A stretch of 52,280 bases of DNA from Nitrospira sp. bin75 (lineage in GTDB: Bacteria; Nitrospirota; Nitrospiria; Nitrospirales; UBA8639). Both the position numbers and the translations under genes were made by a program. Below, piece after piece: positions 6,241 to 42,552 of the stretch (position 1 is the stretch's first letter; each line of letters opens with the position of its first letter). Below the pieces are notes generated by a model. It had not been told where the DNA came from, ran no database searches, and worked only from the letters and a program-made list of their open reading frames with translations. The DNA lies in NCBI GenBank assembly GCA_002238765.1, contig MPMZ01000005.1, positions 32,001 through 84,280 on the forward strand. Direction: 5' to 3'.

Positions 6241-6350
6241 TGAACGATGGCTGTCAATCTCACAAACCGTGACTTTCCGACTTTCTCATACGTGAATGCT
6301 GCTCCTGAAGAGGTTTCTCGCCACCCGATTTCAGAGGTGGCTCGGGAAAT

Positions 6351-7435: not shown

Positions 7436-7463
7436 CCCGCCCAAGACAAAATTCGCAGTTTCT

Positions 7464-18738: not shown

Positions 18739-18807
18739 GGCTTACCCTCCAGGGTGGCGACAATCCCAGATCAACCTTCTGGGGTTGCGTGATCGAAAAT
18801 AAGAGTC

Positions 18808-19563: not shown

Positions 19564-19628
19564 TTTTATCCTCCACTCATTGTTTCCGTGTTGAGACGAA
19601 TGCCATCCTGCTGATCTAACGCAATCCC

Positions 19629-19958: not shown

Positions 19959-19985
19959 ACAGGCCCCTCTCGGTCAGTTAAAGAA

Positions 19986-20690
19986 CTACGCCATGGCTGG
20001 CGTGGTGGCTGTCCGTTTCGCTTGCACCCAATCATGTTCGACGGCAAACTCCCAGGCCGCCTGGACCACCGCCAGATTTTTCTCGATCAATTCCTGTTTT
20101 TTCTTGAACTTTCTCTCGACCACGCTATCCAGGGCGGCCGTTCCTCCGGACACCACAAAGCCTTTTCCCAGAAACCGGTCTTTCACCGCTTGGGCCAGGG
20201 CCTCCATATCCGTCAGACTCGTAATGGCACCCATGGCGCCCACCATGGCCATATTCGTGGCCAAGTCGATTCCGGCCACGTCAAGCGAAAGTTTCGTGGC
20301 GGGCAGATAGAACAGTTTGGCATTCAATTCGGCGAGTTCACGTTCCTGATCAGGCTCGAGTCTCATGGGCCCATCGTGGTTGATCAGGGCAATCCCGTCC
20401 TTTTTCAATCCAAAATAAAACGGATTCGTGTAGCTTTTCCCATGGGTAATCACCTGCGGGTGAAAGATCATGATAATATGGGGGAACGTGATTTCGCCGA
20501 TTTCATAAATCGGTTCGTCAGAGACCCTCACGTAACTTTCCACCGGCGCCATTCGCTTTTCGGAACCATAGAACGGCACGATGGTGCTTTCTCCACCGGC
20601 GTTGATCACCCCTGTACTGAAGATATGGGAGCCCGTGACGACCCCTTGACCTCCGACTCCTGCCATACGAATGTTATAACGAATCGCCAT
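19986..20690 (-). CDS. porG: 2-oxoacid:ferredoxin oxidoreductase, gamma subunit
   Basis: 234 residues. The family start MAIRYNIRMAGVGGQGVVTG is followed by SHIFSTGVINAGGESTIVPF-like residues and YGSEKRMAPVESYVRVSDEP, as in all gamma domains. The C-terminal helical region carries FLGKGFVVSGGTAALDSVVE. This domain shields the thiamine site and contacts coenzyme A in related enzymes. Second gene of the operon, 61 bases after the beta gene. Confidence 0.92.
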   Translation of the reverse strand: MAIRYNIRMAGVGGQGVVTGSHIFSTGVINAGGESTIVPFYGSEKRMAPVESYVRVSDEPIYEIGEITFPHIIMIFHPQVITHGKSYTNPFYFGLKKDGIALINHDGPMRLEPDQERELAELNAKLFYLPATKLSLDVAGIDLATNMAMVGAMGAITSLTDMEALAQAVKDRFLGKGFVVSGGTAALDSVVERKFKKKQELIEKNLAVVQAAWEFAVEHDWVQAKRTATTPAMA

Positions 20691-20751
20691 TGTCTTCCCC
20701 CTCCTCTCTCGTCACGTATGCACCAATCCTTCCTCTCTCAGTCGACCAGTC

Positions 20752-21642
20752 TTACCGCTTTTCGACGGCGGCGGCGGGTTTCGGGAGATATTCTTTGTAC
20801 CCGTACAACTGGGACAAATACTCCTTGGCTTCATCCGTAATGTATTCCGAGAATTTGTAGCGGTCGGTCTCCACGGTTTTGGCGTCTTCCATCACCTTAT
20901 CCGTCGGGATCGCGTATTCGATGTTACAGGACGTGTAGGCCTGGATGTAGCTGGGGCCGATTTCTCGCGCAACCAGCACGGCCTTTTTGATCACACTTTC
21001 AACTCGCCGCGGGTTATTGGGAACCACCGTCGCCACGTACGCGCAACCGGAAACTTTGGCCATACCCAACATATCCATTTTCTCGAACTTCTTCCCGAGC
21101 GGCGCCATTTTCAACACCTGATTCTTATTCGTCATCCCACTTTCCTGACCACCGGTGTTCCCATAGACCTCATTATCCAACATAATGGTCGTAAACTTTT
21201 CTTTTCTGAACCACGAATGCAGGGTTTGGGCGAACCCGATATCCGCCATGCCGCCGTCCCCGGCCATCACGACGACGTCTTTGGGTTTATCGCCAAACCG
21301 AAGGCGAAGGCCTCGGGTCAATCCGCTGGCCACTCCGTTCTGGTCTCCATAATTGCCATACACGAATGGGATGGCGGCTTGTGAGATCGCCAACCGGCCA
21401 CAACCTGCCGTCCCGACCGTGATGGTATCTTCCGGATTGGGAAACGCCACTATGGCCAGCCGGATAAAGAGCGTCATGGCGCATCCCGCACACATAGGGT
21501 GTTCTTCCAAAATTTCCTTGAAGGTTCCCACCTGGGAGACCGAGACTTTTTTCCCAAACGGGCCATGCTCCACCATGTCCCGGTATTCTTTCGGCATGAA
21601 CTTTCCAAACCCTGGTGTAAATTTGACATAATCGAGGCTCAT
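20752..21642 (-). CDS. porB: 2-oxoacid:ferredoxin oxidoreductase, beta (TPP-binding) subunit
   Basis: 296 residues. The thiamine-pyrophosphate motif is AGDGGMADIGF (residues 127-137) with N157 and then EVYGNTGGQ. Four cysteines, C51, C54, C81 and C239, match the ligands of the proximal [4Fe-4S] cluster. First gene of the operon; a strong ribosome site (AAGGAGG) lies about seven bases before the ATG at 21642. Transcription order is beta, gamma, delta, epsilon, alpha. Confidence 0.94.
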   Translation of the reverse strand: MSLDYVKFTPGFGKFMPKEYRDMVEHGPFGKKVSVSQVGTFKEILEEHPMCAGCAMTLFIRLAIVAFPNPEDTITVGTAGCGRLAISQAAIPFVYGNYGDQNGVASGLTRGLRLRFGDKPKDVVVMAGDGGMADIGFAQTLHSWFRKEKFTTIMLDNEVYGNTGGQESGMTNKNQVLKMAPLGKKFEKMDMLGMAKVSGCAYVATVVPNNPRRVESVIKKAVLVAREIGPSYIQAYTSCNIEYAIPTDKVMEDAKTVETDRYKFSEYITDEAKEYLSQLYGYKEYLPKPAAAVEKR

Positions 21643-28894: not shown

Positions 28895-28982
28895 GGAGAG
28901 GTGCGAGAGTGGCCGAATCGGGCGGTCTCGAAAACCGTTGACCGGCAACGGTCCGTGGGTTCGAATCCCACCCTCTCCGCCA
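28895..28982 (+). tRNA. tRNA-Ser (anticodon CGA)
   Basis: The acceptor strands GGAGAGG (28895-28901) and CCTCTCC (28972-28978) pair fully, followed by discriminator G and an encoded CCA (28980-28982). The D arm (GAGTGGCCGAATCGGG), the anticodon loop CTCGAAA with CGA in the centre, a variable arm (class II, as expected for serine) and the T arm GGGTTCGAATCCC are all readable. It would read UCG codons. Confidence 0.96.
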
Positions 28983-29116
28983 TACCATCAACAGCAAGGC
29001 GACGCAGAGTGGAGCCACAGCTTCAACCAATAGCTGGACAAGACTACTCGTCTTCCTTCCCGGCCTAGATACTCTTGCTTCCCGCCCCCATGGACTCTCA
29101 CCAAACCACTCACGGT

Positions 29117-29356
29117 TTAGTCCGTCCTTTGGCAAAGCAGTAACCGTTCCTCGGCTTTCTTCGGCCCGAAAGCCACCCATTTCCCATCTTTGACCGAATA
29201 ACAGAACGCGCAGGTTCGATCCTCAAACGGAGAGAGCCCCATCAACCAATCAGAGGAAAATCCGGATTGATATTCCAAAGGCAAAAAGGCGGCAAAGGAT
29301 GAAACCACTCCCGCCGGGCGTGCCGAGGGTTTGTCTTCCGGGAGTTGTTCGGTCAT
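29117..29356 (-). CDS. Small unknown protein, last gene of the 29-33 kb operon
   Basis: 79 residues, no family recognised. It has a proline-rich N-terminus, an aromatic middle (AFLPLEYQSGFSSDWLMG), a CxxC pair in RTCAFCYSVKDGKWVAFG and a third cysteine near the end (LLLCQRTD). The start ATG at 29356 overlaps the stop of the epsilon-like gene by four bases (ATGA), so it is translationally coupled to it. The CxxC could bind metal or an iron-sulfur centre; nothing in the sequence decides this. Confidence 0.6.
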   Translation of the reverse strand: MTEQLPEDKPSARPAGVVSSFAAFLPLEYQSGFSSDWLMGLSPFEDRTCAFCYSVKDGKWVAFGPKKAEERLLLCQRTD

Positions 29357-29979
29357 CCGACCCCACCTCCCGTTTCTGCGACCCCCGCTCGATGCAGGTC
29401 CCGCACCGTCTCGGCCAACCGGTCAATGGTGTGCGCCGTAATATCCCGGAACGACAACATGGCATCCTCATGGCCGGCCTGAGCACATAGAGCCATCGTA
29501 TAGCAAGAGGTCCCGCCTCGGACGATTTTCAGTGTGAGATTGGCTTGGTGACAATGAACTCCGACAAATAACCCAACATCGATCCGATTATGCCAGATGG
29601 TTAAGTTGGGATGATTGGGGTTAATCTCCACCTCCGGATTAATCTTGGGGTATTTGGGCCGGTAATCAGGCATAGGGATCAACATCGCCCGTTGGTGGGG
29701 CATCACGCAGGACTTAATCGTCTCATAGAGATGGCGTACCGCCACGGCTTTTTGAGCGGCAGCCTCATTCCATGCCCAGAGCACCAAGGGGCCTGGAAAG
29801 ATCGTCGGCACCTTGGCCAACAAAAACTGTCGCGCGGCCTCTTCAAAGGCCGCCTCCTCGGATACCCGATGCCCATAAAGAATGGCTTGCCCGGGGTCCG
29901 GAAGCCGTACTCCCATATTCGCGGCAGCCGGAGGAAGGAAATGCTCGGGGCCTGGACGTACTTCATAGGATGCTTTCAT
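29353..29979 (-). CDS. Orphan paralogue of the por epsilon subunit
   Basis: 208 residues. It shares the blocks of the epsilon subunit at 18808-19563: IFPGPLVLWAWNEAAAQKA, PMPDYRPKYPKINPEVEINP, HPNLTIWHNRIDVGLFVGVH and ALCAQAGHEDAMLSFRDI. The C-terminal extension of about 45 residues is missing. No alpha, beta, gamma or delta genes stand nearby; instead it directly follows a CobW-type gene (TGA then ATG with no gap) and overlaps the next small gene. It could be an alternative subunit or have a different role in this operon. Confidence 0.8.
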   Translation of the reverse strand: MKASYEVRPGPEHFLPPAAANMGVRLPDPGQAILYGHRVSEEAAFEEAARQFLLAKVPTIFPGPLVLWAWNEAAAQKAVAVRHLYETIKSCVMPHQRAMLIPMPDYRPKYPKINPEVEINPNHPNLTIWHNRIDVGLFVGVHCHQANLTLKIVRGGTSCYTMALCAQAGHEDAMLSFRDITAHTIDRLAETVRDLHRAGVAETGGGVG

Positions 29980-30350
29980 TCATTCACTCCGCTCTTGGTC
30001 ATTCATACGATTGCATGGCTCGGTGATGACATCAATGACATCTCCCACCTGGGCCATACCGGAACATTCCAGCACGACAACTTTAACTTGGCAGTTGACG
30101 ACTAACTCCTTGAGCCCCCAAGCAATCTCATCCCGCGCATCACAACAGACGCATCCGCCACTGATTTCCCGGATCTCCTCAACCAGGTTCGCCGCCAGAG
30201 GTCCGTCGACACTGACGGCACCCGCTTCGTTCATCAGGACGCCGGCTCGCACCCCACGCTGCTGCCAGTGCCTCAACAATTGAAGGAGCAACGTGTTTTG
30301 CCCGCACCCCGGAACCCGGACAGGAAGGTGACGGAGAGTTTTCGTATCAT
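29980..30350 (-). pseudogene. Short CobW/COG0523-type GTPase, one frameshift, lacks the C-terminal half
   Basis: From the ATG at 30350 the protein begins KLSVTFLSGFRGAGKT, a G3E GTPase P-loop. The frame breaks at about 30291-30300 (GGCAAAACACG); adding one C gives GKTTLLLQLLRHWQQRG and a 123-residue protein. It retains the metal-binding GGCVCC motif (residues 65-70) and the switch strand VVVLECSG, but not NKxD or the CobW C-terminal domain. Its start overlaps the upstream stop by four bases and its stop abuts the next ATG. The shortness is independent of the frameshift, since the next gene starts immediately. Confidence 0.75.
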
Positions 30351-30577
30351 TTTCGATCCTTAGTCATTTCGTCAGCCGCACGACGGAACCAGGCAATCGT
30401 TCGCTCTAGATGATCGATTCCATAGAGCCTTGCAAAGTCTCTGGTCTTCGCATGCTTGTCATCTTGCAATTCAGCCAAGCGTTCTCGAATATACGTCGAC
30501 GTCAACCGGATATGGCAACGGACCTCGATGCAGTTTCGCCATTGCACGTACGAACGAGGAATCACGTTATCGCTCAC
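30347..30577 (-). CDS. Small helical protein of unknown function
   Basis: 76 residues from a GTG at 30577 that overlaps the stop of the upstream gene (GTGA). Longer in-frame starts lie inside the upstream gene. The sequence is charged and helical: RNCEV-like core (WRNCIEVRCHIRLTSTYIRE), then LAELQDDKHAKTRDFARLYG and DHLERTIAWFRRAADEMTK. No family is recognised. The tight coupling on both sides argues for a real gene working with its neighbours. Confidence 0.6.
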   Translation of the reverse strand: MSDNVIPRSYVQWRNCIEVRCHIRLTSTYIRERLAELQDDKHAKTRDFARLYGIDHLERTIAWFRRAADEMTKDRK

Positions 30578-31188
30578 GTTTGACTCGGCCCCAGGAACGC
30601 ATTGAAATTGGATGCCACTCGAAACGATAACTCGCGCCAGGCCGACGCAAAATTCTCGGCCGGCACGACTGGGCGCGTGCCGTTGTCCCACTCAAGCAGG
30701 GTTGATCGTCGGTACTCGATCCCCAATTGCTCGACGATGTTTACCTCGTAACGCCGCATCCAATCGATCAAATCCAAGGTCAACGTTGCGCACGCATTTC
30801 GCTGGGATGTAGTCGGCGCGTTCAACTTCGGAAGATCTGCATCGGACCAGGGCGGGCAATCCAGCGTCGCATGTGTTGTATATCGAGGTTGAAACTCGTA
30901 GCGGGGCAGGAAGACGCCACCCCACTGACCATCTCCGTAGAACACACCAAAACCACGCAGCACGACACATCGGCCCCGCGGCATCGCCAAGGCATACACG
31001 CTAGCACAGTCTTTGCGATCGGCGGGCGGCGCGATGCGATCAAAGCCGATATCGAGCAGCCAATTGCCTTCGGGCCGCAGAATATCGCAACCCCAGCACC
31101 ACATCTGTTGGCTTAGCAGGGCCACCGCTTGTGCAAGGAGTTCACCTTCAGCGCGTTCGTGATCATTCACTTGAAAGGCTGTTGACAT
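30574..31188 (-). CDS. Unknown 204-residue protein of the operon
   Basis: From the ATG at 31188, one base after the upstream stop. The N-terminal half is rich in aromatic and cysteine residues (LLSQQMWCWGCDILRPEGNW, then CVVLRGFGVFYGDGQWGGVF). The C-terminal half is helical (LTLDLIDWMRRYEVNIVEQL and WRELSFRVASNFNAFLG). There is no signal peptide and I recognise no family. Its GC-rich codon use differs little from the flavoprotein gene upstream, with which it seems to have been acquired. Confidence 0.62.
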   Translation of the reverse strand: MSTAFQVNDHERAEGELLAQAVALLSQQMWCWGCDILRPEGNWLLDIGFDRIAPPADRKDCASVYALAMPRGRCVVLRGFGVFYGDGQWGGVFLPRYEFQPRYTTHATLDCPPWSDADLPKLNAPTTSQRNACATLTLDLIDWMRRYEVNIVEQLGIEYRRSTLLEWDNGTRPVVPAENFASAWRELSFRVASNFNAFLGPSQT

Positions 31189-31189
31189 C

Positions 31190-31483
31190 TCAGTCAGCCT
31201 CGGCAGTCGCAATCGATGCGATGTTGGCCAACAGCCATGCGGAGGCAGCAAACAACTGCAACCAATCCCCACTGGAGCTGATCCCGTAAGTCAGCATGCT
31301 GGCAATCCAGCAAACGCTGGCAGCCGTTTGTCCGAGCCATTCGACGCGCAGGGCCCGTGCCAGTCGGTTTCGCCCCACAACAGACGCGATCCCCCTCCTC
31401 GCGGCCTCGCTCATCGCGGTCGGTCCACTCGAAGGCGCGGCGAGTACCCACCCGGCTGCCCCTTCGTCGTTCCCCGTCAACAT
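31190..31483 (-). CDS. Small two-helix membrane protein
   Basis: 97 residues from the ATG at 31483, with AGGAG five bases upstream. It overlaps the end of the flavoprotein gene by seven bases. Two hydrophobic segments are seen near the C-terminus (TAASVCWIASMLTYGIS and LQLFAASAWLLANIASIA), after a polar, basic N-terminal half. No family recognised. The next gene starts one base after its stop. Confidence 0.6.
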   Translation of the reverse strand: MLTGNDEGAAGWVLAAPSSGPTAMSEAARRGIASVVGRNRLARALRVEWLGQTAASVCWIASMLTYGISSSGDWLQLFAASAWLLANIASIATAEAD

Positions 31484-32604
31484 ACGCACTCCTGCCCACA
31501 ACAGGAGAGATCACTGAGATACATGCCCCAGTTGCGGTACGTTTCCAATCCTTCCGCCGGCAGCCCTAACGAGGTCGCTATGGCTTTGGCGACGACGGCG
31601 AAACGTTGTCGATACTTGAAGATAAAGCAAAAGACGTGATTGTCATGACGAACAGCGGGGCCGCAGAGAAATACTCCCGGCACAATGGTCGACTCATCGT
31701 GCTCGCTCAGCAACGGATAGCCATCGACGCGTCGCCCGAACAATTCTGCGACCAGCTTGTGACTGCCTTCAAATCCACCTGCCAAGAGTGGCGGCACACG
31801 AGTTTGAAACCGACGTCCGTCCCGCGCTGTGACTTCATACGTGGCGTCCACGCGGGTGACAGAGGCGATTGGCGTTTCCGGAAACAACTCCACTTGTTCC
31901 TCGAACCAATCTTCTCGCATCCGTTCCAGCGAATACGTTGAGAGGGCGATACTGGGATCGTAACTCTCGTCTTGCCACGGACAACTTTTGTCGAACAATC
32001 GTACCCGTTTGTCGCGATACGCCAAGTGGTAGGCCGCGTCGACACCACTCTCGTAGCCACCGACAATGATGAAGTCGTCTCCGCCAAGTTCTTCATAGCT
32101 GGCAATTGTCGCAGTGTGTCGACAGAGTTTGCTGCCAACAAACCCACTCAAACGTGGGTATTGGAACTCGCCAGCGGCCCAAATGACATGCTTGGCTCGA
32201 AAAATGTCATCGGCCGTATCGATGCGAAAATCGTCGCTAACTTTTGTTATCCGCGTCACGCTGGTCTTCTCGCGTATCGGCAACTCGAAAAACTTCGCGA
32301 CTCCCCGCAAGTGCAACGCATATTCCCTGCCCGTCGGATGCTCAACCTCTAAGCTGAACGCGGGCGAAACACCAATCGCGATCGAGTTCAAATCGAGCAT
32401 ACCCATCGAATTGGTCGGAAATGAGGGGGTGATGAATCGAGTCTCGGCCGGCCATGAGGCAAACGACGATCCGACCGTGTGTCGCTCAAGCACGATAAAG
32501 CTCTCAATACCGGCATGCTTTAGGGCTATCGCAACCCCCACACCCGCGGCACCACCACCGACGACGACGACATCGTAAGTATTAACGTTCGTTGCAGTCG
32601 TCAT
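31477..32604 (-). CDS. FAD/NAD(P)-dependent oxidoreductase with a cysteine-rich tail
   Basis: 375 residues from the ATG at 32604. Two Rossmann motifs are visible: VVVVGGGAAGVGVA (residues 13-26) for FAD and FIIVGGYESGVDAA near 190 for the nicotinamide cofactor. WAAGEFQYPRLSG resembles flavin monooxygenase and thioredoxin-reductase-like proteins, and GVFLCGPAVRHDNHVFCFI near 335 closes the FAD site. The last eight residues, CCGQECVC, hold four cysteines, possibly a metal or redox site. It is the first large gene of the 29-33 kb operon, preceded by a short peptide frame and the element at 32788-32847. Substrate unknown. Confidence 0.82.
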   Translation of the reverse strand: MTTATNVNTYDVVVVGGGAAGVGVAIALKHAGIESFIVLERHTVGSSFASWPAETRFITPSFPTNSMGMLDLNSIAIGVSPAFSLEVEHPTGREYALHLRGVAKFFELPIREKTSVTRITKVSDDFRIDTADDIFRAKHVIWAAGEFQYPRLSGFVGSKLCRHTATIASYEELGGDDFIIVGGYESGVDAAYHLAYRDKRVRLFDKSCPWQDESYDPSIALSTYSLERMREDWFEEQVELFPETPIASVTRVDATYEVTARDGRRFQTRVPPLLAGGFEGSHKLVAELFGRRVDGYPLLSEHDESTIVPGVFLCGPAVRHDNHVFCFIFKYRQRFAVVAKAIATSLGLPAEGLETYRNWGMYLSDLSCCGQECVC

Positions 32605-32620
32605 CGAGCGTTCCTCTCGG

Positions 32621-32698
32621 TCACTGCACCGCTGCAACAACCACACAGACAATCGCAACGGCGGTGACGCACATCACTCGAATCAACCGGGCCTGCAT
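32621..32698 (-). CDS. Possible 25-residue hydrophobic leader peptide
   Basis: An ATG at 32698 directly after AGGAGGG opens a 25-residue frame: a basic start (MQARLIRV) and then an almost wholly hydrophobic run with two cysteines, ending VVVAAVQ. It stops 16 bases before the flavoprotein start. It could be a small membrane peptide or an attenuator leader. The ribosome site is closer to the ATG than usual, so the call is tentative. Confidence 0.4.
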   Translation of the reverse strand: MQARLIRVMCVTAVAIVCVVVAAVQ

Positions 32699-32728
32699 CC
32701 CTCCTACCACCCCGCCACACTCATCCGT

Positions 32729-32753
32729 AGCGCGCTTCACATTTGAGCGCGCT
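32729..32753. promoter_or_regulatory. Paired AGCGCGCT palindromes
   Basis: The self-complementary octamer AGCGCGCT occurs at 32729-32736 and again at 32746-32753, nine bases apart. As DNA it could be a pair of operator half-sites; as RNA it would fold into an 8-bp hairpin with a nine-base loop. It lies between the 60-nt element and the flavoprotein operon. Confidence 0.4.
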
Positions 32754-32787
32754 CTCGTCGAACCCTTGTGAGCCTAATCCAATCCAC

Positions 32788-32847
32788 TCGAATATTTTCC
32801 CAGTGCGACCGATCCGGCTTATCCCCGCCTCCGGAATGGGCGGTCCG
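32788..32847 (-). promoter_or_regulatory. 60-nt conserved upstream element, copy 1
   Basis: 54 of 60 bases are identical to 41697-41756, with no gaps and the same orientation relative to the genes. On the minus strand it contains GACCG and CGGTC arms flanking a conserved core (CATTCCGGAGGCGGGGATAA), so a stem-loop is possible. It precedes the flavoprotein/CobW operon (start codons at 32698 or 32604). Copy 2 precedes the COG0523 GTPase operon. It may be an operator, promoter or structured RNA leader. Confidence 0.65.
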
Positions 32848-32877
32848 ACGTCCCAGCCGCCATTCATGGCCAGCCCT

Positions 32878-33183
32878 CTACCAACTCGACTTTTTCACGC
32901 CGGGAATATCCCCCCGTAAGGCCAACAAACGAAAATCGATGCGGGACATGCCGAATCGTCTCAGGAATCCACGGGTCCGGCCTGAAATAAGACATCGGTT
33001 TCTCACTCGGCTTGGGCTGGCATTGCGGGGCAGCGCCTGCAGCCGCCGTTGCGCCTCCATCCGGTCTTCCAAAGAAGACCCGGGATTTCGGATAACTTCC
33101 TTTAAATTGGCTCGTTGGTGGGCGTGCCGCTTCACCACCTCTTGTCGTTTTTCATTCTTAATGATGCAACTTTTTTTGGCCAT
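32878..33183 (-). CDS. rpsN: 30S ribosomal protein S14, zinc-free form
   Basis: 101 residues, the length of the E. coli type. It starts [20 protein letters not shown] and ends with the conserved [20 protein letters not shown]. In the zinc-binding form the region before this has two CxxC pairs; here it reads [10 protein letters not shown] and MSRIDF, so the ligands are gone. Many bacteria keep such a form outside the ribosomal operons to replace the zinc form under zinc shortage. It stands alone here between the two metal-linked clusters. Confidence 0.93.
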
Positions 33184-33821
33184 AGGACCTTCCTTTCCTC
33201 AAGGTGTGATTTTTTCCCAATGTCACCCTTTTGGATTAACCATTGTCTTGGTTCATTCATCCACCAATTTCGACCAACCAATCGTTCTCTGAATACGCTA
33301 GCTGATTGGCAATCAAATACAGCTGGGCAGTGAGAGGAACGAGCTTATGAGTTGAAAATGATTTGAAACGCCAACTGATGGCTAGCATGCCAGCAATTGC
33401 TTCTGCTGCCTCGGCTTATACCAAGACACTTCGCTTTCATGAATAACTTTTCAGTGAACGTCAGAAATTATTAAATGAAACGTCTTTTTTCTGGAGATGA
33501 GTGTATGACGAAGAGGAAAGGCCGAACAAAGAAATGTGGGAGTGTGGGCGCTACCAAGGAAGCAGGTGATGACGGAGCGCGCGGGGTTGGCTCTTTGTTC
33601 GGTTACCGCTTACTCAAAAAGGCCTTACATAATCCCTATCCCAGGCTCAGGCCTACAGTATGACGTTATAATACCATGTCAGAAAGCCGGCTAGAGGATT
33701 CTCCTCTCAGATCAATCGAACCGCTGGAACCACTCGACGATTCGCGGCCGTTGTGGCTCGCCGCGTATAGGGGCACTCCCCTCTTCCCGTGCTCGCAGCA
33801 AGCGGTAGCGGGTGAAAAAAC
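33184..33821. other. 638-bp region between rpsN and merR
   Basis: No credible gene. Plus-strand frames such as 33475-33663 translate to basic, low-complexity peptides without a family match. The left part should carry the rpsN promoter (minus strand). The right end, up to the merR promoter at 33822, is unlike the coding sequence around it in composition. Confidence 0.45.
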
Positions 33822-33853
33822 TTGACTCTGTACTGAGGTACGGAGTGTATACT
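33822..33853 (+). promoter_or_regulatory. MerR-type promoter and operator
   Basis: TTGACT (33822-33827) and TATACT (33848-33853) are separated by 20 bases, longer than normal, as in MerR-activated promoters. The spacer contains a dyad at 33825-33846: ACTCTGTAC and GTACGGAGT around four bases, matching in eight of nine positions. This is the classic layout in which MerR untwists the spacer on metal binding. Confidence 0.88.
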
Positions 33854-33859
33854 TCAGAC

Positions 33860-34294
33860 ATGAAAAAGACCGATAAAGAACTGATGACGATTGGAACCTT
33901 AGCCAAGGCAGCCGGGGTTGGGGTAGAGACAGTCCGCTTTTATCACAGGAGGGGTCTTCTGGAAAAGCCATCTCGAACGTCAGGTTTTCGAAAGTACTCG
34001 GAATCTGATGTACGGACAATCAAGTTTGTGAAGAGAGTTCAGGGGCTTGGATTCTCTCTCAAAGACGTTCAAGATCTCCTAGGCCTTGCTCTTTGTTCCC
34101 GGGAAACACGACCCTTTATTGCAAAGACTTGTAACGAGAAGATCGATCAAATTGAACAGAAGATAGCCGACTTGAGTAGGATGGTGGGAATGCTCCACGA
34201 GTTTTCCCTAATCTGTGGAAGTGAAGCGTCGAATGATTCTGAATGCAGGCTCCTGGATTGCTTTGAAAACAATTGGGAGTGCTGCAAAAAATGA
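33860..34294 (+). CDS. MerR-family metal-sensing regulator
   Basis: 144 residues from the ATG at 33860. The DNA-binding part is LMTIGTLAKAAGVGVETVRF followed by YHRRGLLEKPSRTSGFRKY, very close to mercury- and lead-type MerR proteins. The dimer helix is KIDQIEQKIADLSRMVGML. Cysteines lie at KTCNEK, FSLICGS, SECRLLDC and ECCKK, covering the three positions used for Hg(II) in MerR plus four more. The ATG lies about seven bases after the -10 box, so the message may be leaderless; an ATG eight codons later is an alternative. The promoter inside the longer open frame rules out its start at 33812. It is followed by the metallothionein-like gene after 13 bases. Confidence 0.9.
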   Translation: MKKTDKELMTIGTLAKAAGVGVETVRFYHRRGLLEKPSRTSGFRKYSESDVRTIKFVKRVQGLGFSLKDVQDLLGLALCSRETRPFIAKTCNEKIDQIEQKIADLSRMVGMLHEFSLICGSEASNDSECRLLDCFENNWECCKK

Positions 34295-34307
34295 GGAGGA
34301 GAACGCC

Positions 34308-34463
34308 ATGAAAGATTCTTGTGGATGCTGCAAAAATGGCAAGTGTGCATGCAAGACAACGACGTGTGGCTGCTGTTGTGGAACTGAAGTTTGTCGCTGT
34401 GGTGCGTCATGCGTCTGTGGTGATTGCTGTAGCGGGTGCTGCAAGGCCTCGAGCCGTATGTAA
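34308..34463 (+). CDS. Small cysteine-rich metallothionein-like protein
   Basis: 51 residues with 17 cysteines and no aromatic residues. Cysteines stand in CC, CxC and CCC groups (for example SCGCCKNGKCACK and CGCCCGTEVCRCG), with lysine, glycine and threonine between them, as in metal-thiolate proteins. It does not look like the known bacterial SmtA type, which has histidines and a zinc finger. A good ribosome site (GAGGAGGAG) precedes the ATG. It is in one operon with the merR gene, so the predicted role is to bind the sensed metal in the cytoplasm. Confidence 0.8.
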   Translation: MKDSCGCCKNGKCACKTTTCGCCCGTEVCRCGASCVCGDCCSGCCKASSRM

Positions 34464-34496
34464 CTGCAATTGAGTCTCAATCTGACGTGGAGGCCA

Positions 34497-35330
34497 TTAA
34501 TTTGCGGACATGGGACTGACTAAGAGCTGGGGATCTATTCGCTGGGTAAAGAGGTTCATTCGCCAATCCAAATGGGGACCCGTCGCACGGCCCGATTTAC
34601 CCAATTCAGCAATGAAGTCTCCTTGCGCAATACGATCGCCCTTTTTTACCAAAATTTTGTTCAGGTGGAGAAACGTGGAGGAAAGACCATGGCCATGATC
34701 AAGAATCAAGGTAGCCCCCGAAAAAAACATATTAGGGTGGGCCAGGGTGATCACTCCACCCGCGGGGGCTTTGACTGGAGTTCCAATGGCCTCCGCAATG
34801 TCTACACCAAAATGTGGCCGGCGGGGCTCACCATTCAGGATGCGTTGGCTGCCATAGACTCCTGTTATTTTTCCCATGACAGGCCAGATGAAACCATCCT
34901 CAAAATCCGTACGAGGCGCATCCAGCATTCTGGCAGCTTTAGCTAACCGGGCGTCTTCTTGAATTCTAGCAAGATCCCGTTTATGAGGATTGACCTTTCG
35001 AGGGGGTAACCCGTTAATGCGCTGAATCTTATATTTCCTTTTCTTAATAGACAGAACACGATGTTCTTTCTTCCCGTTGGGGTAGGTAATTGCCAGCTTC
35101 ACCCTCTGGGATGCATCTCTTCCAAAACCCACCAAAAACATTCCTTGGGGAGATACGCGGACTTTCCGTCCATCTACCCATACTTTGGCCCCCGGAACAG
35201 TCGTGCCTTGAACCAGACCGCCCTGAACCATCGGGCCCTCCAAAGAAAGACTCTCTTGCCCTGCCCCTGCTGCCTGAACATAAACCGCCCCCATCCACCC
35301 CAAAACCAATAAAGACAGAACCCTCACCAT
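34497..35330 (-). CDS. Exported M23-family (LytM) protein
   Basis: 277 residues from the ATG at 35330, the codon that gives a signal peptide (MVRVLSLLVLGWMGAVYVQA). A beta-rich N-terminal domain follows (QGGLVQGTTVPGAKVWVDGR), then a LytM domain with RPHFGVDIAEAIGTPVKAPA (HxxxD) and GPHLDWRMN. The usual HxH zinc motif reads HLD here, a variant seen in part of the family. It probably trims or binds peptidoglycan. The ribosome site is weak. Confidence 0.86.
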   Translation of the reverse strand: MVRVLSLLVLGWMGAVYVQAAGAGQESLSLEGPMVQGGLVQGTTVPGAKVWVDGRKVRVSPQGMFLVGFGRDASQRVKLAITYPNGKKEHRVLSIKKRKYKIQRINGLPPRKVNPHKRDLARIQEDARLAKAARMLDAPRTDFEDGFIWPVMGKITGVYGSQRILNGEPRRPHFGVDIAEAIGTPVKAPAGGVITLAHPNMFFSGATLILDHGHGLSSTFLHLNKILVKKGDRIAQGDFIAELGKSGRATGPHLDWRMNLFTQRIDPQLLVSPMSAN

Positions 35331-35510
35331 ATTTTTCAATGACCTTATTAAGGTTGCTTTTTCTTCTTCCAGTCGATTGGGCTTCGAGCCAATATTTAAA
35401 TGGATTGCAGGGGGAGATGTGGCATGGGAAGCCTTGAAGTGGCCCCATACCCTGCTTTGGCAATTGAATGGAATATGACGTGTCACGTATTCACCCGCAC
35501 ATCGGAAACC

Positions 35511-35825: not shown

Positions 35826-35904
35826 ACACTTCCCTTTCTCCTTGCCCATTCAGCGTCAAGGCATAATCCGGTTCTTCACGGAGTTGACTGCAGCATTGCC
35901 TGCC

Positions 35905-37205
35905 TTATTCGTCTTTCGTTCTTTGAAACACCGTCACCCCGCCGACCAAGGTCCGGACAACCGCACCACGAAGTCGCCACCCAGCGAACGGGCTGTTCCG
36001 CCCCTTCGACCGAAACCGCTCCGGATCAACCGTCCATTCCATCCTTGGATCGATCAACACCACATCAGCCTGCGCACCGGCGGCCAACGTCCCGCACGAT
36101 AGGCCAAGCAAACGGGCCGGGGCTGACGTCAGTTTTTCTATCATGGATTCCAGGGACAACAGGCCCCTTTCTACCAGCCGAAGAGAAAGCCCTAAGGCCG
36201 TTTCAAGCCCGACTATTCCAAATGGAGCCTTGGACAACCCCCACTGCTTCTCATAGGCAGCATGCGGGGCATGATCGGTGGCTATGGCATCAATGGTGCC
36301 ATCCTGCAACCCGTCGCGGACCGCCTGGACATCCGCATTTCGACGGAGGGGAGGATTCATTTTCGCCAATGCGCCCTGCTCCCGCACAGTCTCTTCGGTC
36401 AACATGAAATGATGGGGGCAAGCTTCCGCGGTCACCCGAACTCCGGCGGCTTTGGCCGTCCTGACGGCCTCCACGGCATTCGCCGTACTGATATGCGCGA
36501 TATGTAGATGACATTCCGTTGCCTTGGACAACGCGATATCCCGTTCCACCATCCTGGATTCCGCTTCAGAAGGGATGCCTCGGACTCCCAAGAGACGGGA
36601 AAGGGCCCCTCGGCCATACATCCGCACCCGGCCAATGACAGATCTTCGCAATGATCGATCACCGGCAGATCCAAGGCCCGAGCCTCTAACATCGCCTGTC
36701 GCATGACGGCATGCTCCATCACGGGACGGCCATCATCCGAGACAGCCACACATCCGGCCCCACGCAAGCCCCGAAGGTCTGCCGGCTCTTTCCCTTGTAA
36801 TCCCTTGGTGATGGCCCCGATTGGATGTACGCGAACCAGCCCGGTAGCATGCACCCGGTCATGAATGGTCTCGGTCACAGCAGGGGAATCATTGACGGGA
36901 TTGGTATTGGGCATGCAACAGACGGTCGTCAACCCTCCGGCAGCGGCTGCAGCAGTTCCAGTCTCGATGGTTTCTTTGTACTCATAACCCGGTTCCCGTA
37001 GATGGACGTGCAGATCGACCAATCCCGGTGCCACGATCAACCCGTCCGCCTTGATAAGGTCGGCATGTGAGGGAAGAGCCGTCTGTGGAGGCGTCACCTC
37101 GGCGATACGCCCTTGGCTGATCCAGACATCCCCCACACCATGCCACCGTCCAGGGTCGATGACCCAACCGCCTGAGATGATGCATAAGTCGGCAGGATAG
37201 TTCAG
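35905..37205 (-). pseudogene. pyrC: Dihydroorotase (class I type), one frameshift
   Basis: The N-terminal half carries the metal motif [20 protein letters not shown], the substrate loop [13 protein letters not shown] and HCEDLSLAG. The C-terminal half (frame of 35905-36651) has [27 protein letters not shown] and the catalytic ATDHAPH. The frame changes at about 36603-36610 within a GGGGCCC run; one extra G restores [19 protein letters not shown]. The repaired enzyme would be complete, about 433 residues, converting carbamoyl-aspartate to dihydroorotate. The start is uncertain; a CTG at 37205 with AGGGGAA before it fits best. It follows the ZIP gene after 8 bases. Confidence 0.85.
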
Positions 37206-37213
37206 GGATTCCC

Positions 37214-38008
37214 CTAGTGCGGGAGCATGGTCAGCATGCCGATGGTCACCATTCCGGTCAGCATCATGGCAAACGGCCAAGCCCCACTGGCCGCCCCGTG
37301 CCGGCCATGTAAGTCGGGAACCAGATCGGCAAGACCGATATACAAAAAACTGGCGGCGGCCAACATCAAGGCATAGGGCACGATCGGCTCCGCATAGGCC
37401 AAGCCCCCAAACGCCAACACCACCCCTGCGAGGATCGCCATACCTGACAGGGTATTGGCCCAAAACGCCTCCCACTGGGAAAATCCGCTCGACAGCAGAA
37501 TGGTGAAGTCACTCAACTCCTGCGGAATTTCATGACCCAGAACCGCCAACGTCGTGACCAGACCCAGAGCAGGGGACGCGACACAGGCCACGCCGATGGC
37601 AATACCGTCGGCAAAGTTATGAACGGCATCGCCGATCAGGATCAATGCCCCGGCTTCTCGGCGAACGGTCGAGCCCTTCGCATGCCCGCGAGGCTTGAGT
37701 TCAGCAGCCTCCCCGTGCGCATGGCGCCAGATCACCATCCATTCCAGAATAAAGAACAGGACCAACCCCGCCAACAAAGCGATGCCCGCCTCATTAATCG
37801 AAATGGCTTCGAGTGCCTCGGGAAGCAGCCCGATGGTCGCAGTCGCCAGCATCGTGCCGGTCGCAAACCCCAGCAGATTCGGCATCATCCATTGCCGCCA
37901 CCCATCCGGTATAAACAGCACCAGACCTGCAGGTAATAAGGCACCCAGGCTGCCCAGCAACCCCATCAAGATGACAAACATCCATGTGGATTCTTGGGGC
38001 AGGCTCAC
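37214..38008 (-). CDS. ZIP-family divalent metal transporter
   Basis: 264 residues, eight predicted membrane segments. The metal path is in [18 protein letters not shown] (helix 4) and [20 protein letters not shown] (helix 5), the ZIP signatures. A His-containing cytoplasmic loop ([20 protein letters not shown]) lies between helices 3 and 4. It imports zinc or related metals. It sits within the operon that begins with the COG0523 GTPase and is followed directly by pyrC. Confidence 0.92.
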
Positions 38009-38071
38009 GCGTTTGGGCCGATCTGGTCAGGGCCACAAACCTGACCATGATACATCGAAACCCGCCCGGTG

Positions 38072-38650
38072 TTAGCCATGTCCATGGACCGGTGGCAGTT
38101 CATGTTTGACTCGTGGCAATAATTCGGTGAGGTTGCAAGGGCGATGATCTATGTCGAGCTGGGGAAGGATGATCTGTTCCATGCCCAAGCGGCAGGCTCC
38201 GGTCGACCCCGGCAGCAGAAACACAATGGTGTCGCCGCACACCCCGGCATCCGCCCGGGATTGAATGGTAGAGGTCCGGATTTCACGGTAACTCAGCCAG
38301 CGAAATAATTCGCCGAAGCCCGGAATCGGCTTGGAAAACAGCGAACGGACGGCCTCCGGCGTCACATCCCGTTGGGTCACGCCGGTCCCGCCCGTCACGA
38401 TCACGTATTCCACCGCCGGGTCCGCCACCCAGGCGGCGATCGTTTCCCGAATGGTCTCATATTCATCCGGACACAGTTTGCGGTCGGCCACGCGATGCCC
38501 AGCCCGCATCAATCGATCAACAATGGCGGAGCCACTCGTATCCGTTTCGATCGTTCTGGAATCCGAGACCGTCAAGACCGCCACCGCCACGCTGAGGCCG
38601 GCTCTTTTAAGGTCTGCTGTTTCCGTGGTTGCACCCTCTGCCTGACTCAT
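38072..38650 (-). CDS. moaB: MoaB/Mog-like molybdopterin biosynthesis protein
   Basis: 192 residues. The family blocks are [38 protein letters not shown], a serine- and glutamate-bearing loop and [20 protein letters not shown]. The MoaB/Mog fold adenylates molybdopterin before metal insertion. The start overlaps the DUF3386 stop by four bases (ATGA), so it is coupled to the operon; why this gene stands with metal-supply genes is not clear, but a link to molybdenum or tungsten use is possible. Confidence 0.88.
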
Positions 38651-39342
38651 TCCATCACCTCATGGTTCGATAATATAATCATCCGTGTGCTGACTCCGCC
38701 GCTCTCTCCGAATGACACACGCCGGACGGACGGAAGCCAGATGCCAGCCACCTCCACAAATTCGTTGACATAACTTTCCATCCCGATCACCGCCTGAGCA
38801 TCCAGCGAAAAGTAGGTCATCACATAATGACTGGACGCTTGCCGGCCATCCGGGGCGGTGTCGTACCGTTCTATGGTATTCACCCGGCGTTCGGTCATGG
38901 GGGTGATGCGCCCGATTTGCGTATATTGTCGGTTCTTGAGGCGGTACCAGGACTCGAGTCGTCCTCCGGTCAACAGCACACGGCGCCCCCGGGGATGAGC
39001 ACAACCGGCATCCTCTTCGGAATCGAAGGATAAGATGTAGCGGCCGTCACCATCCTCAAACGGCGAATAGGCCAAATGCATGCCCTGCGTCCACAGCCGT
39101 TCGCGCACCCATTCCTGTAACGCCGGATCGGCACAGGGCAAGTCCACGGTGGTTTCTTGTCGAGGCACCAACTGAACCGTTCCGAGGACAATCGTTCCGT
39201 TGTCGTTGAGGGTGACGTCGGCTCGATATCCGCCAAACTCTTTGGGCCACTTGTACATCCGGGCATGGGCCTCTCTGACCAGACGTCGCGCCTCGGGGTC
39301 GTCGGTCAGCTTCAGGCCGTGTGCTATTGTTGCGTCAGTCAC
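38647..39342 (-). CDS. DUF3386-like protein
   Basis: 231 residues, no signal peptide. It begins [20 protein letters not shown] and has [20 protein letters not shown], then [10 protein letters not shown]-like and [20 protein letters not shown] near the end, which I recall as the pattern of DUF3386, a family known mainly from cyanobacteria. Function unknown. Coupled by four-base overlaps to the small gene upstream (39339) and to moaB downstream (38650). Confidence 0.65.
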
Positions 39343-39656
39343 GCCGTTTCCCGCTTCTCCAATACATCGTGGCTTCCATCATCATGATGATGTTCCCCAT
39401 CCAGCGCCATGGCTTGCACATCCTGTTGCGTCACCTCATCCGTCGTTTTATGAATCTTGAACTGGGTCGTCTTTCCCGGTCCTTCCAAAAACGCGATGAC
39501 CGTTTCAATGGGCGGACAACCGGGCTCCCGGCACTCCAATTCGGTCACCATGACCGTGGTCTCTTCCGGCAAAGACCAGGCCGAACGAGCCCAGGATTTG
39601 ATGCGATCCGCCTGATCCGGATCAATGCGGCGGCGGCCTCCAAATAAATTCATCAT
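39339..39656 (-). CDS. Small conserved-looking protein with a His-rich tail
   Basis: 105 residues. The core is WSLPEETTVMVTELECREPG followed by CPPIETVIAFLEG and a lysine-rich IHKTTDEVTQQDV, and the tail has GEHHHDDGSHD. I recall similar proteins beside CobW-type genes in other bacteria, but cannot name a family. The two cysteines and the His/Asp tail could bind metal. Start at 39656 overlaps the stop of the WD40 gene; a second ATG follows at once. Confidence 0.6.
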   Translation of the reverse strand: MMNLFGGRRRIDPDQADRIKSWARSAWSLPEETTVMVTELECREPGCPPIETVIAFLEGPGKTTQFKIHKTTDEVTQQDVQAMALDGEHHHDDGSHDVLEKRETA

Positions 39657-40720
39657 TTCTCCCCCACGCCTTCCACGGCAAAGAGCGCCACCGTTCCGTC
39701 ATCGGCTCCCGCCGCCAGACAGACATCGGTCGGACTCCAGGCCACACAGGACAGGCCTCCCGACACAGGCAGCTCCTGATTCACCCTCGGCTTCGCCTTC
39801 CCGGGCTTCCACAAGCAGAGCAACCCGTCTTCTCCTACCGTCGCCACCACCCGCTGACGGGGGTGACAGGCAATTGCCTGAATCCATCCCAGATGGCTGT
39901 TCAAAAGCCGACCACTGGATCCTTCGAATTTTTGGGCCGACCACGCCACCAAATCAGGGCCGGCTGCTGTCCATAAAGATTCTCCATAGGGATCGAAGAC
40001 CACATGCCCGACCTTGCAGGGATAACCGGCCATATGCCAGTTCTGGTCGGTCGAGAGACTCCATAAATGGACCGACCCATCCAAATTTCCCGCGGCCAGA
40101 TACTGCCCGTTCGAACTGATTGATAACGACAGGAGTGCCCCCTCATAGGGAAACGTCTTCACAGGAGAGTCCATCCCAACCTGCCACAGCGTCGCTCCTC
40201 CGTAACAGGAGGAAAAAATTTGGCCCGGATACCCCTTTCGCCAACAAAGGTCGGACACGGAACTCTTATGATCCGAGGTCTCCCATTCCACAGAACACCC
40301 GCCCGACTCCGACCACTTCAGGATCTGCAGGGTTTTTCCCGAGGTCATCGCCAGCCGTTCGCCGCCGGATTCCCACGCCAAATGTTCCACCCAGCCCTTT
40401 CCATCTCCCACCGGGACCACGGCACGCTCTTCTCCGGAATCGACGTCCCACACACGTCCCACTCCGTCTTCCCCGGCGGTTGCGAGAATTTGTCCTCCGG
40501 GATGCCATCCCTCCGCCAGTATCGCGCCTTGATGTTTCGGGTTACGGAAGACACACCGCTGGGATCCCACATGCCACACCGCGACTTGGCCGCTTGCATC
40601 CGCAGCCGCCAATCGGCTGCCGTCCGGTGAAAACATGACGGCATGGATGTATTCATCCAATGGAAACGTCCAGATCGACTGCAATTGGATTTTGGCCCGA
40701 GACCGCACTAAACGAGGCAT
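39653..40720 (-). CDS. WD40-repeat beta-propeller protein
   Basis: 355 residues from the ATG at 40720, which overlaps the GTPase gene by 13 bases. At least six WD-type repeats can be seen, for example [20 protein letters not shown] then [45 protein letters not shown] and [16 protein letters not shown]. It would form one propeller and act as a binding platform. No signal peptide. WD40 genes next to COG0523 GTPases occur in several phyla, which suggests the two act together. Confidence 0.88.
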
Positions 40721-41679
40721 AATCGAAACCCTTCGACCAGCCGGTCGCGATCGAGGTTGCGGCCGATGAACACCAATTGGTTCCCCCTCGGCTCCGTGGC
40801 CCGCCATGGCCTGTCAGGACGACCGTCGAACAACATATGCACGCCTTGAAAGACAAAACGTTCATCCCGTCCCTTCACATCCAGGATACCCTTCATGCGA
40901 AAAATGTCGGCACCCATGCCCGACAGCACGTCCCGAAGCCAATCATTCATCCGAGCCTCATCCACCTGCCCTGGTTCGGCAATCGACACGGAGTAGACCG
41001 ACGGATCATGCTCGTGGGCTTCCTCGCCTAAAAAGTTCGGGTCGATTTCCAGTTTCCGGCCCAGATCAAACGCCCCCACATTCAACAGGCGTTCGATTTC
41101 CAACCGGGCATCCCGGGTCCGGTAGATTTTGGTCATGGGATTGATGGCCCGCACGCGGGCCTCCAGCCGCTCCACCTCCCCGTCGTCCACCAGATCGATT
41201 TTATTCAGGAGAATCACGTCCGCAAATGCGATCTGCTCCTTGGCTTCGGGACTGGTGTCGAGATGCTCCCAGATATGCTTGGCATCCACCACCGTCACAA
41301 TGGCATCCAGCATCAACCGGCGCTTCATGTCATCGTCCACAAAAAAGGTTTGTGCGACGGGTGCCGGATCGGCCAGCCCCGTGGTCTCGATGACCATATA
41401 GTCGAACCGCTCTTTCCGTTTGAGCAAATTGGAAATTATCCGGATCAGGTCTCCGCGAACGGTGCAACAGATGCACCCATTGTTCATTTCAAAGATCTCT
41501 TCGTCCGCCCCTACCACCAGCTGATTATCAATTCCGACCTCACCGAATTCATTCACAATCACCGCCACCCGTTTCCCATGCTCGGTGGTCAGAATACGAT
41601 TCAACAGGGTTGTTTTGCCCGCACCGAGATATCCCGTCAACACAGTGACCGGGACTAGAGCTTGCTCTTCGACTTTCAT
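40708..41679 (-). CDS. COG0523 (CobW/G3E) GTPase, putative metal chaperone
   Basis: 323 residues. P-loop GYLGAGKTT at residues 16-24; the metal motif CICC at 69-72 in [13 protein letters not shown]; the switch strand [22 protein letters not shown] near 160. The CobW C-terminal domain starts near 230 ([15 protein letters not shown]) and ends with [13 protein letters not shown]. Members deliver zinc, cobalt or iron to client proteins using GTP; a zinc role is common when they sit with pyrC copies, ZIP or similar genes, as here. First gene of the operon, with copy 2 of the 60-nt element just upstream. Confidence 0.92.
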
Positions 41680-41696
41680 AATTGACCCCTTTCTGT

Positions 41697-41756
41697 TCGA
41701 ACATCTTCCCAGCGCGACCGAGCCCGCTTATCCCCGCCTCCGGAATGGTCGGTCCG
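41697..41756 (-). promoter_or_regulatory. 60-nt conserved upstream element, copy 2
   Basis: 54 of 60 bases match 32788-32847. The six differences fall outside the CATTCCGGAGGCGGGGATAA core and outside the GACCG/CGGTC arms. It ends 18 bases before the GTPase start codon, so in RNA it would lie in the leader; in DNA it would overlap the promoter. Confidence 0.65.
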
Positions 41757-42552
41757 TGCGATTCCTGAAACTTTTACCCCGGGACTTCAACGGGTAATGG
41801 TGAGTCTTACCCGGACGGCGAAGCGAATATGAATCGCTTCGAAACTGAAGCAACCTGGTGGGTTAAACTTAGCCGAATACACGAAAACGGCAACGAGATT
41901 TTCATGAATGGTCCAATTCTTCCCTCGATCCTCCCCAATACGGTTATGAAGCAGTCTATTCTGTTTTTTCTTCTCCCGGCTGCAAACAGGGAAACCTGTG
42001 CGCCCAAGAGAATGAGTGAGACCGGAGAAGAGATCTATTGCAGGTATGCCAGCGATCCTTGGCGGGCACGAACTTGGTAAACGAGGACGTCTTGATGCCC
42101 ATTTGTTCGGGTGGGAGTATTTCTGGTTACTGATGAGCACTCGTACGCTTCCCCGTCACGGAGACAGTTCTCAAGTCGAGTGTCTGGTCGAGCAGGTTCT
42201 AAGTGCGGACATCCGCGAGTTGCTGGCGGATCAAGGGGGATTTGCCCGTCCGTCGAGGGCCGAACAGGAAACAGGACTTTTGTTCTACAAGGACAAGGAT
42301 TGTCCGCCACTGGCGAGAATGGCGCTGGCCAACGAAATCCGCTTTGTATGCCTTGCCCTCATACTCGCGTATGTGATCATCTTTTCCATTCCGGCAGGCT
42401 GACACAGACTGCATGGATTTGATCCGTGTATTCCTTTCACCTGCGATAATCCGAGATCGAGTCGCCGTTGTGGCATCATGCTTGCGGAATCCGTTTTTCA
42501 TTGTTATATTTTATGCAATGGATCTATAAAACCAATGGAAGGAGGTTGGGCC
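41757..42552. other. Region between the GTPase operon and vapBC
   Basis: About 800 bp without an intact gene. Its middle holds the decayed ATPase listed at 42105-42300. The remainder has open frames on both strands, but their translations do not resemble known proteins. The right end contains the promoter and ribosome site of vapB. Confidence 0.5.
42105..42300 (-). pseudogene. Remnant of an AAA/DUF4143 ATPase
   Basis: The minus strand reads LVEQKSCFLFGPRRTGKSPL followed by IRQQLADVRT, then a TAG where a tyrosine is usual, then NLLDQTLDL. This is the N-terminal P-loop region of the same ATPase family as the gene at 5033-6201. Everything after it is gone. It is inactive and marks an old insertion or deletion site. 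Confidence 0.7.

Follow-up and report, generated by a model that had tools for sequence, protein, structure and literature searches.

A compact run of genes on the minus strand of a Nitrospira contig raises the question of which of its products act together and on what. The run occupies positions 33183-29117 of the window, i.e., the whole stretch of 52,280 nucleotides that was analysed (Nitrospira sp. bin75, contig MPMZ01000005.1), to which all window coordinates refer. The original prediction treated seven of its genes as one operon linking a flavoprotein, a short CobW-type GTPase and an epsilon-type subunit of 2-oxoacid:ferredoxin oxidoreductase (por). The run is instead a decayed derivative of an already known cluster type, and it contains an undescribed conserved module formed by the genes of a flavin adenine dinucleotide (FAD) flavoprotein, a small hydrophobic protein (TM2) and a 204-residue protein (U204). 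Nitrospira-type, planctomycete and archaeal records carry these three genes together, near COG0523 (CobW) GTPases in most bacterial cases and near zinc-free-type ribosomal paralogues in some. The run probably represents the eroded end of a Zur/COG0523-type cluster for zinc scarcity, whose FAD-TM2-U204 core would help the GTPases to handle zinc.

The minus strand of the run was re-read in all frames, with the following result:

32878-33183, minus strand: S14 paralogue without zinc ribbon (C- form); NCBIfam NF006477, 135 bits against a cut-off of 77
32621-32698, minus strand: 25-residue hydrophobic frame, no family match above cut-off; probably not a gene
31477-32604, minus strand: FAD flavoprotein (Pyr_redox_3) with the C-terminal tail SCCGQECVC; PF13738, 309 bits
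31190-31483, minus strand: TM2, small protein, two hydrophobic helices recognised by eye; no Pfam or NCBIfam match
30574-31188, minus strand: U204, 204 residues; no Pfam or NCBIfam match
30347-30577, minus strand: U76, 76 residues, GTG start; ratio of nonsynonymous to synonymous substitution rates (dN/dS) 0.31-0.57
29980-30350, minus strand: what is left of a COG0523 (CobW) gene, with a frame break in the P-loop and no C-terminal part
29353-29979, minus strand: por-epsilon (PF02552) gene, third genomic copy; outside the conserved module
29117-29356, minus strand: CxxC protein, 79 residues; outside the conserved module

Six of the seven predicted genes are present as described, including the flavoprotein ending CCGQECVC, the two-helix protein, the 204- and 76-residue proteins, the epsilon-type protein and the CxxC protein, but the fifth, the CobW gene, is not intact. 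The junctions of -7, +1, -4, -4, 0 and -4 bases are numerically correct, the FAD and TM2 genes overlapping by 7 bases; the hydrophobic frame said to precede the genes does exist, although it is probably not a gene. Values of dN/dS, computed against L010, L011, L012 or L015 (loci of relatives; two for the epsilon gene and three for the others), are 0.15-0.18 for FAD, 0.20-0.24 for both U204 and epsilon, 0.31-0.45 for TM2 and 0.34-0.83 for the CxxC gene. Since they remain below 1 in all six genes, U76 included, these have the appearance of real coding genes. The flavoprotein match spans the whole Pyr_redox_3 domain (positions 1-305 of 305 of PF13738).

Conservation of the FAD-TM2-U204 genes

A search with a U204 alignment provided 66 U204 loci, near relatives included. 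They comprise Nitrospira-type records, many Planctomycetota (largely with Pirellulales-type names), Chloroflexi-type records, three archaeal records (one of Poseidoniales and two of Euryarchaeota) and single records of Ignavibacterium, Actinobacteria and Bacteroidetes. A COG0523 homologue is found within 5 kb of U204 in 46 of the 66 loci, FAD within 5 kb in 35 and TM2 within 1 kb in 32, and 60 loci carry at least one of COG0523, FAD, S14, L28, S18 or a Fur-family gene within 10 kb. Single-sequence tblastn queries and the shortness of many contigs mean that these figures may be undercounts. As a yardstick, eight U204-bearing genomes hold 0-5 cobW genes each (E<=1e-20) in 1.4-13.7 Mb, so chance would seldom place a cobW gene within 5 kb of any given gene. 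A common gene order among planctomycetes starts with CobW, FAD, TM2 and U204, often continues with a second U204-like gene and ends with CobW; the second U204-like gene, 31-35% identical, follows U204 in 14 planctomycete loci (L025-L030, L034, L035, L040-L042, L045, L047, L050). Locus L052 of the cultured Thalassoglobus neptunius KOR42 reads CobW-FAD-TM2-U204. Two of the archaeal loci (L049 and L051) have both FAD and TM2, the FAD match of L051 being in two pieces.

With respect to U204 itself, the invariance of the motifs QQxWCWG and RPEGNW is in part a product of the search patterns, outside which lie residues Y65, G81, R96, Y147, E148, R160 and W184. The alignments used in this analysis (A2, 54 rows; A3, 31 rows) are made of chosen rows rather than of all hits. 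The predicted structure of U204 reaches a predicted local distance difference test score (pLDDT) of 94.1 and a predicted template modelling score (pTM) of 0.90. No clear solved relative emerged (best Foldseek E 0.14; best VIA Z 5.0, 4.2 A over 110 residues), a comparison that tells neither a new nor an old fold, and the plasmid collection contains no U204 match at E<=0.01. Judged by its sequence, U204 appears to be a conserved partner family that lacks a Pfam or NCBIfam model.

The nearest solved structure to the flavoprotein is 3d1c (246 bits, query 10-375), which ends SCCEVSCTC. Residues C326, C369 and C373 are invariant in the 31 chosen homologues, and nine planctomycete rows that seem shorter all run on to the final cysteine; the cysteine tail is thus conserved from Nitrospira to archaea and 3d1c. 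The protein is not a YpdA bacillithiol disulfide reductase by TIGR04018, for which it scores 78.4 bits versus a cut-off of 339.9.

FAD homologues also occur on plasmids, where the search gave 536 records, 497 of them from Klebsiella. The listed Klebsiella homologues share 35-37% identity. The seven contexts fetched are a chosen minority devoid of Klebsiella (529 unfetched), two of them from one Acaryochloris strain. A COG0523 or GTP-binding gene lies within about 2 kb of FAD in all seven (cobW by Pfam in three, annotated zigA in two and annotated GTP-binding in two), S14 is present in four and Fur-type or 'transcriptional repressor' genes in three. For instance, on both Acaryochloris replicons FAD adjoins genes annotated as zigA and Fur-family, and in Paenibacillus it stands between S14 and a FeoB_N/Gate membrane protein, with a cobW gene upstream. 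Haloarcula, Halocatena and Haloferax have FAD, S14 and a 'nucleoside recognition' protein in this order, with a divergent GTP-binding gene; cobW and FeoB_N/Gate are shown by Pfam in Haloferax (Haloferax gibbonsii, L089), and the Haloarcula FAD (L087) is interrupted by a stop codon within the matched stretch and carries no gene annotation. In Paracoccus, aztABC, a gene for a transcriptional repressor and one for cobW precede FAD, and the annotated zinc ABC transporter aztABC and cysS lie beside FAD in L090.

A 'nucleoside recognition' or FeoB-type membrane protein follows FAD in five of the seven contexts, with or without S14 in between:

L085, 7098-8777
L086, 4190-5863
L087, 7231-8940
L088, 7243-8952
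L089, 7243-8967

Both members tested (L086 and L089) contain FeoB_N and Gate, and this protein is a candidate zinc-shortage transporter. Such membrane proteins, together with the title of 3d1c (flavin-containing putative monooxygenase), would also suit a flavoprotein acting as a monooxygenase in the production or breakdown of a small metallophore-like molecule that binds zinc, U204 and TM2 serving in its synthesis or uptake. However, this alternative is unlikely: no biosynthetic partner genes were noticed in the loci read, although no search was aimed at them, and the invariant tail cysteines suit thiol chemistry better. A thiol or zinc-transfer role of the flavoprotein can be put forward tentatively.

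The CobW remnant and the sister genome G010

The short CobW-type GTPase with CVCC that had been assigned to the fifth gene does not exist as such. The ATG of the -4 junction (30350) opens the frame MIRKLSVTFLSGFRGAGKTRCSFNC, which meets a stop after 25 codons, while the CVCC frame (SGGCVCCDA, ending at 29980) is a different one whose first listed start, TTG 30291, is located behind the P-loop. Since P-loop and CVCC are in different frames, the gene is not intact. Read across the break, it gives 123 residues that match positions 2-107 of the 180 of PF02492 and contain no CobW_C domain. Hence the fragment does not unite in a single frame the features expected of a COG0523/CobW protein (P-loop, CxCC, complete nucleotide-binding domain, CobW_C), and most of the protein is missing. 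The frame-joined product is not the CobW-related selenoprotein NF041053 either (46.1 bits versus a cut-off of 180).

In G006 (L010) and G003 (L012), only the start and the tail of this CobW gene are present, separated by about 4.2 and 2.7 kb in which other genes lie. Compared with the sister genome G010, the CobW tail shows two single-base length differences in about 260 bases, and the epsilon and CxxC genes (about 860 bases) show none. From these sequence features, the mini-CobW is most likely a pseudogene fragment. A programmed frameshift was set aside, as the classical slippery heptamer is not seen by eye at the P-loop; the separate remnants in L010 and L012 and the two length differences in the tail disfavour it further. 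The break in the P-loop may be an assembly error, but the gene would be truncated even so.

Altogether 59 genomes, the own genome included, were searched for the products of the run. The epsilon family is present in 58 of them, U204 in nine, FAD in seven and the CxxC protein in nine, the last comprising eight genomes of the genus and G049, where the match is partial. A typical genome has two epsilon copies, of about 57% and 75% identity, and a few have one, three or four; a copy at 95-100% identity is confined to G000, G003, G006 and G010. The latter, a single-contig genome, encodes epsilon and CxxC at 100% identity but neither FAD nor U204. Its DNA matches 28963-30236 of the window at 98.2%; the very next base corresponds to window 35503, with 94.8% identity up to 35890 and 97.1% for 35884-42284. 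The block 30237-35502 (5.3 kb; L091 9637/9638), with S14, the MerR and cysteine-rich genes, an M23 gene, FAD, TM2, U204, U76 and the CobW front, is thus cleanly absent from G010, which keeps epsilon, the CxxC gene and the CobW tail. This absence is read as a loss in G010 because the CobW tail remains and relatives hold the genes of the block.

It might be thought that the whole run is non-functional wreckage in this genome, given the decayed CobW gene, a split dihydroorotase-like gene and the loss in G010. Nevertheless, FAD and U204 are full length and show dN/dS values of 0.15-0.24 versus relatives, which makes such an explanation quite unlikely.

Other genomes separate the seven genes in other ways. 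U204 and U76 adjoin a CobW protein of 553 or 536 residues in G023 and G025, of another genus, in neither of which FAD was found. In L011 and L014, epsilon is a short piece beside the CxxC gene or fused to it, and in none of the 57 named loci outside Nitrospira-type records were epsilon and CxxC detected beside U204. Homologues of the seven genes therefore occur without each other in related genomes. The epsilon protein is a true PF02552 homologue (127 bits). However, this third copy is not encoded with other por subunits: the genes read between 29117 and 33183 include none besides epsilon itself, and those of por type in the window (por labels by reading) are at 17392-21642. The epsilon and CxxC genes would be local passengers, and what looked like a mini-CobW and a por link is decay and coincidence, which corrects a misleading reading.

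Zinc-related genes, regulators and a proposed mechanism

The original prediction overlooked the S14 gene directly upstream (33183-32878) and, farther on, a metal-related stretch that extends to 41679. Besides a gene with a sub-threshold zinc-ribbon match, this stretch includes:

40708-41679, minus strand: intact COG0523 GTPase (cobW and CobW_C, 211.8 and 88.7 bits)
40807-39653: WD40 gene overlapping the COG0523 GTPase
37214-38008, minus strand: ZIP-family metal transporter (PF02535, 120 bits)
33812-34294, plus strand: MerR-family regulator (PF13411)
about 34308-34463, plus strand: cysteine-rich, metallothionein-like small protein (label by reading); no Pfam match

The cysteine-rich protein (window 34305-34463) has 52 residues, about one third of them cysteine, and is also found in five of eight relatives' loci. 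The dihydroorotase-like gene (window 35905-37475) is split into two overlapping frames, where G010 has one frame of 523 residues; there is a 1-base length difference to G010 at 36607, and the split may be due to decay or to an assembly error.

Relatives conserve a more complete arrangement. The order in L012 is S14, CobW (457 aa), CobW (433 aa), L28, FAD, TM2, U204, U76, a CobW remnant, HemB, HisI, a ParA-like gene, a further CobW remnant, epsilon and CxxC. S18 follows S14 in L010 and L061, and L010 additionally has, between U76 and HemB, two unknown genes at 6268-7725 (395 and 87 aa) that lack a Pfam match. Remnants of this gene pair were observed in L021. A zinc-dependent HemB carries a cysteine site at the position where the HemB of L010 and L012 reads ALDPYSSDGHDG. 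A HemB2 of such a kind is described in the available part of Haas et al. (PMC2770081). The window S14 lacks both CxxC pairs, whereas the other S14 of the genome (L095, in the ribosomal operon) reads CPLC and CRIC; the former is thus a zinc-free paralogue of a zinc protein. A full COG0523 GTPase is not found in the window operon, which has the remnant only, but in the clusters of relatives and at 41679-40708; for this reason the run is called a derivative, and not a member, of the Zur/COG0523 zinc-scarcity cluster. The neighbours in L015 include a Fur-family gene (PF01475) and ZIP-like and dihydroorotase-like genes (labels by reading).

The link to metal handling that had been suspected therefore holds, on account of the zinc-free-type S14, S18 and L28 paralogues, the COG0523 GTPases, the Fur-family genes and the ZIP gene. 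It does not extend to a site dependent on iron-sulfur (Fe-S): the neighbourhood points to zinc, including the HemB without the cysteine zinc site. A zinc-scarcity context is very probable.

Several planctomycete loci carry a divergent Fur-family gene in front of the operon. Of the 24 planctomycete promoters tested, 17 have the palindrome TTGCAATTNAATTGCAA (at most three mismatches, within 330 bases upstream); at these 17 loci, a match as good was seen in just two control pieces overall. The palindrome was chosen after inspection of largely the same promoters. In the Nitrospira group, a block, TTCAYTGAAAAGTTATTCATGAA, is common, with small changes, to six S14 promoters and one FAD promoter. It was rejected as an operator, its conservation being sufficiently explained by relatedness and its genomic occurrence being single. 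The own genome has two Fur-family genes, neither tied to the window. One of them (L097 315-1204, on the small contig C113) stands beside a membrane protein and a receptor-like fragment (label by reading), and its contig is possibly foreign to the bin.

Diverse observations weigh against the zinc reading. None of the listed neighbours lies within 10 kb of U204 in six of the 66 loci (L053, L068, L072, L077, L080, L082), and no COG0523 gene within 5 kb in 20, some of the contigs being short in both cases. A COG0523 match is missing from all three archaeal loci (L049, L051, L053), and the L049 genome has no cobW at E<=1e-20. The flavoprotein model is weaker than that of U204 (pLDDT 78.5), and its last 12 residues, the cysteine tail, fall below 50; this low confidence in the model is compatible with a mobile tail and is no evidence of one. 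The palindrome is lacking in 7 of the 24 planctomycete promoters, including that of the cultured Thalassoglobus, and is absent from the window, where no operator was found; the conserved block upstream of S14, TTCAYTGAAAAGTTATTCATGAA, appears only once in the own genome at up to three mismatches. Finally, TTGCAATTNAATTGCAA also fits the published Nur box tTGCaa-N5-ttGCAA, as quoted in the available part of PMC3919588, nikB/nikC lie near FAD in L087, and L089 has a gene annotated as NikR.

The last three points would be expected if the module answered to nickel or cobalt, under a Fur-family regulator of the Nur type and with COG0523 GTPases as the carriers of that metal. This is very unlikely, however, since nickel control hardly accounts for the zinc-free-type S14, S18 and L28, HemB and HisI, and annotated aztABC and cysS stand beside FAD in L090. 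As TTGCAATTNAATTGCAA fits the Nur box, we infer zinc as the metal from the gene content and not from the operator.

On the zinc reading, the functional core would consist of FAD, TM2 and U204, with U76 in some loci. Under zinc shortage, the flavoprotein might use NAD(P)H electrons, by way of its cysteine tail, to reduce cysteine ligands close to the membrane or to take up their zinc, with TM2 as the anchor. The flavoprotein and U204 would then pass the zinc to the CxCC site of the GTPase, or keep CxCC reduced, and the GTPase would load essential zinc enzymes. Since the operon's own GTPase has decayed, the module would use the intact GTPase at 41679-40708 or would itself be declining.

FAD with invariant tail cysteines is found beside COG0523 GTPases in haloarchaea, cyanobacteria, Paenibacillus, Paracoccus and planctomycetes. 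A wider proposal, which we consider rather doubtful, is that FAD-TM2-U204 forms an undescribed membrane-linked redox machine of Bacteria and Archaea that strips or hands on thiol-bound zinc at the expense of NAD(P)H and supplies COG0523 GTPases, U204 being a dedicated new family and the FeoB_N/Gate-type membrane protein an alternative in haloarchaea, Paenibacillus and Acaryochloris. The flavoprotein and U204 would be concrete candidates for missing COG0523 partners, testable in cultured hosts.

The view that the seven genes are translated as one unit assembling or protecting a metal- or Fe-S-dependent redox site, with epsilon as the link to 2-oxoacid:ferredoxin oxidoreductase, accords with the tight junctions and the intact epsilon copy (dN/dS about 0.2), but it is highly improbable and largely refuted by G010, where epsilon and CxxC occur without FAD and U204, as well as by the broken CobW, by FAD and U204 elsewhere without an intact epsilon, and by the finding that epsilon was detected beside U204 in none of the 57 loci outside Nitrospira-type records.

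Comparison with known systems

Neither the FAD-TM2-U204 module nor U204 was met in searches of the open-licence PubMed Central (PMC) literature, as far as its available parts extend. Nothing found in that literature joins COG0523 and zinc limitation with an FAD-dependent oxidoreductase, Planctomycetes with Zur and COG0523, or a FeoB-like protein with Zur, COG0523 and zinc. The accessible parts of zinc papers on S. aureus and M. smegmatis (PMC5480029, PMC7174638) and on P. denitrificans (PMC5387054) mention no flavoprotein that could be tied to the FAD family. The contribution of COG0523 GTPases to zinc homeostasis is called unclear in the available part of a 2018 review (PMC6103462).

Among individual proteins, 3d1c matches the flavoprotein over query 10-375 and has a like cysteine tail, but its entry title gives a putative function only. 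YpdA/Bdr is a distant homologue (TIGR04018, 78.4 bits; 7a7b, 44.6 bits, best stretch query 11-260). The epsilon protein is homologous to the Por epsilon subunit/CO_dh family (PF02552, 127 bits), but the window copy is the third and lies outside the por operon.

A COG0523 gene and an oxidoreductase gene paired under Zur control have already been published for C. glutamicum, together with the suggestion that the two act jointly. According to the available part of PMC2823685, Zur directly represses the COG0523 gene cg0794 and the divergent oxidoreductase gene cg0795, for which a joint zinc chaperone/insertase role was suggested by the authors. The likeness to the present module consists in the COG0523 and oxidoreductase genes, compared by description and not by sequence, and that part of the paper mentions neither U204 nor TM2.

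The closest known systems also include the Zur-regulated COG0523 clusters, which, in the parts available of PMC2770081 and PMC6103462, show the same pairing of COG0523 GTPases with HemB, HisI, PyrC or ribosomal paralogues. In the available main text of Haas et al. 2009 (PMC2770081) 'flavo' and 'S14' are absent and 'oxidoreductase' appears in the background alone. The window differs from these clusters in U204 and TM2, which here have no family model.

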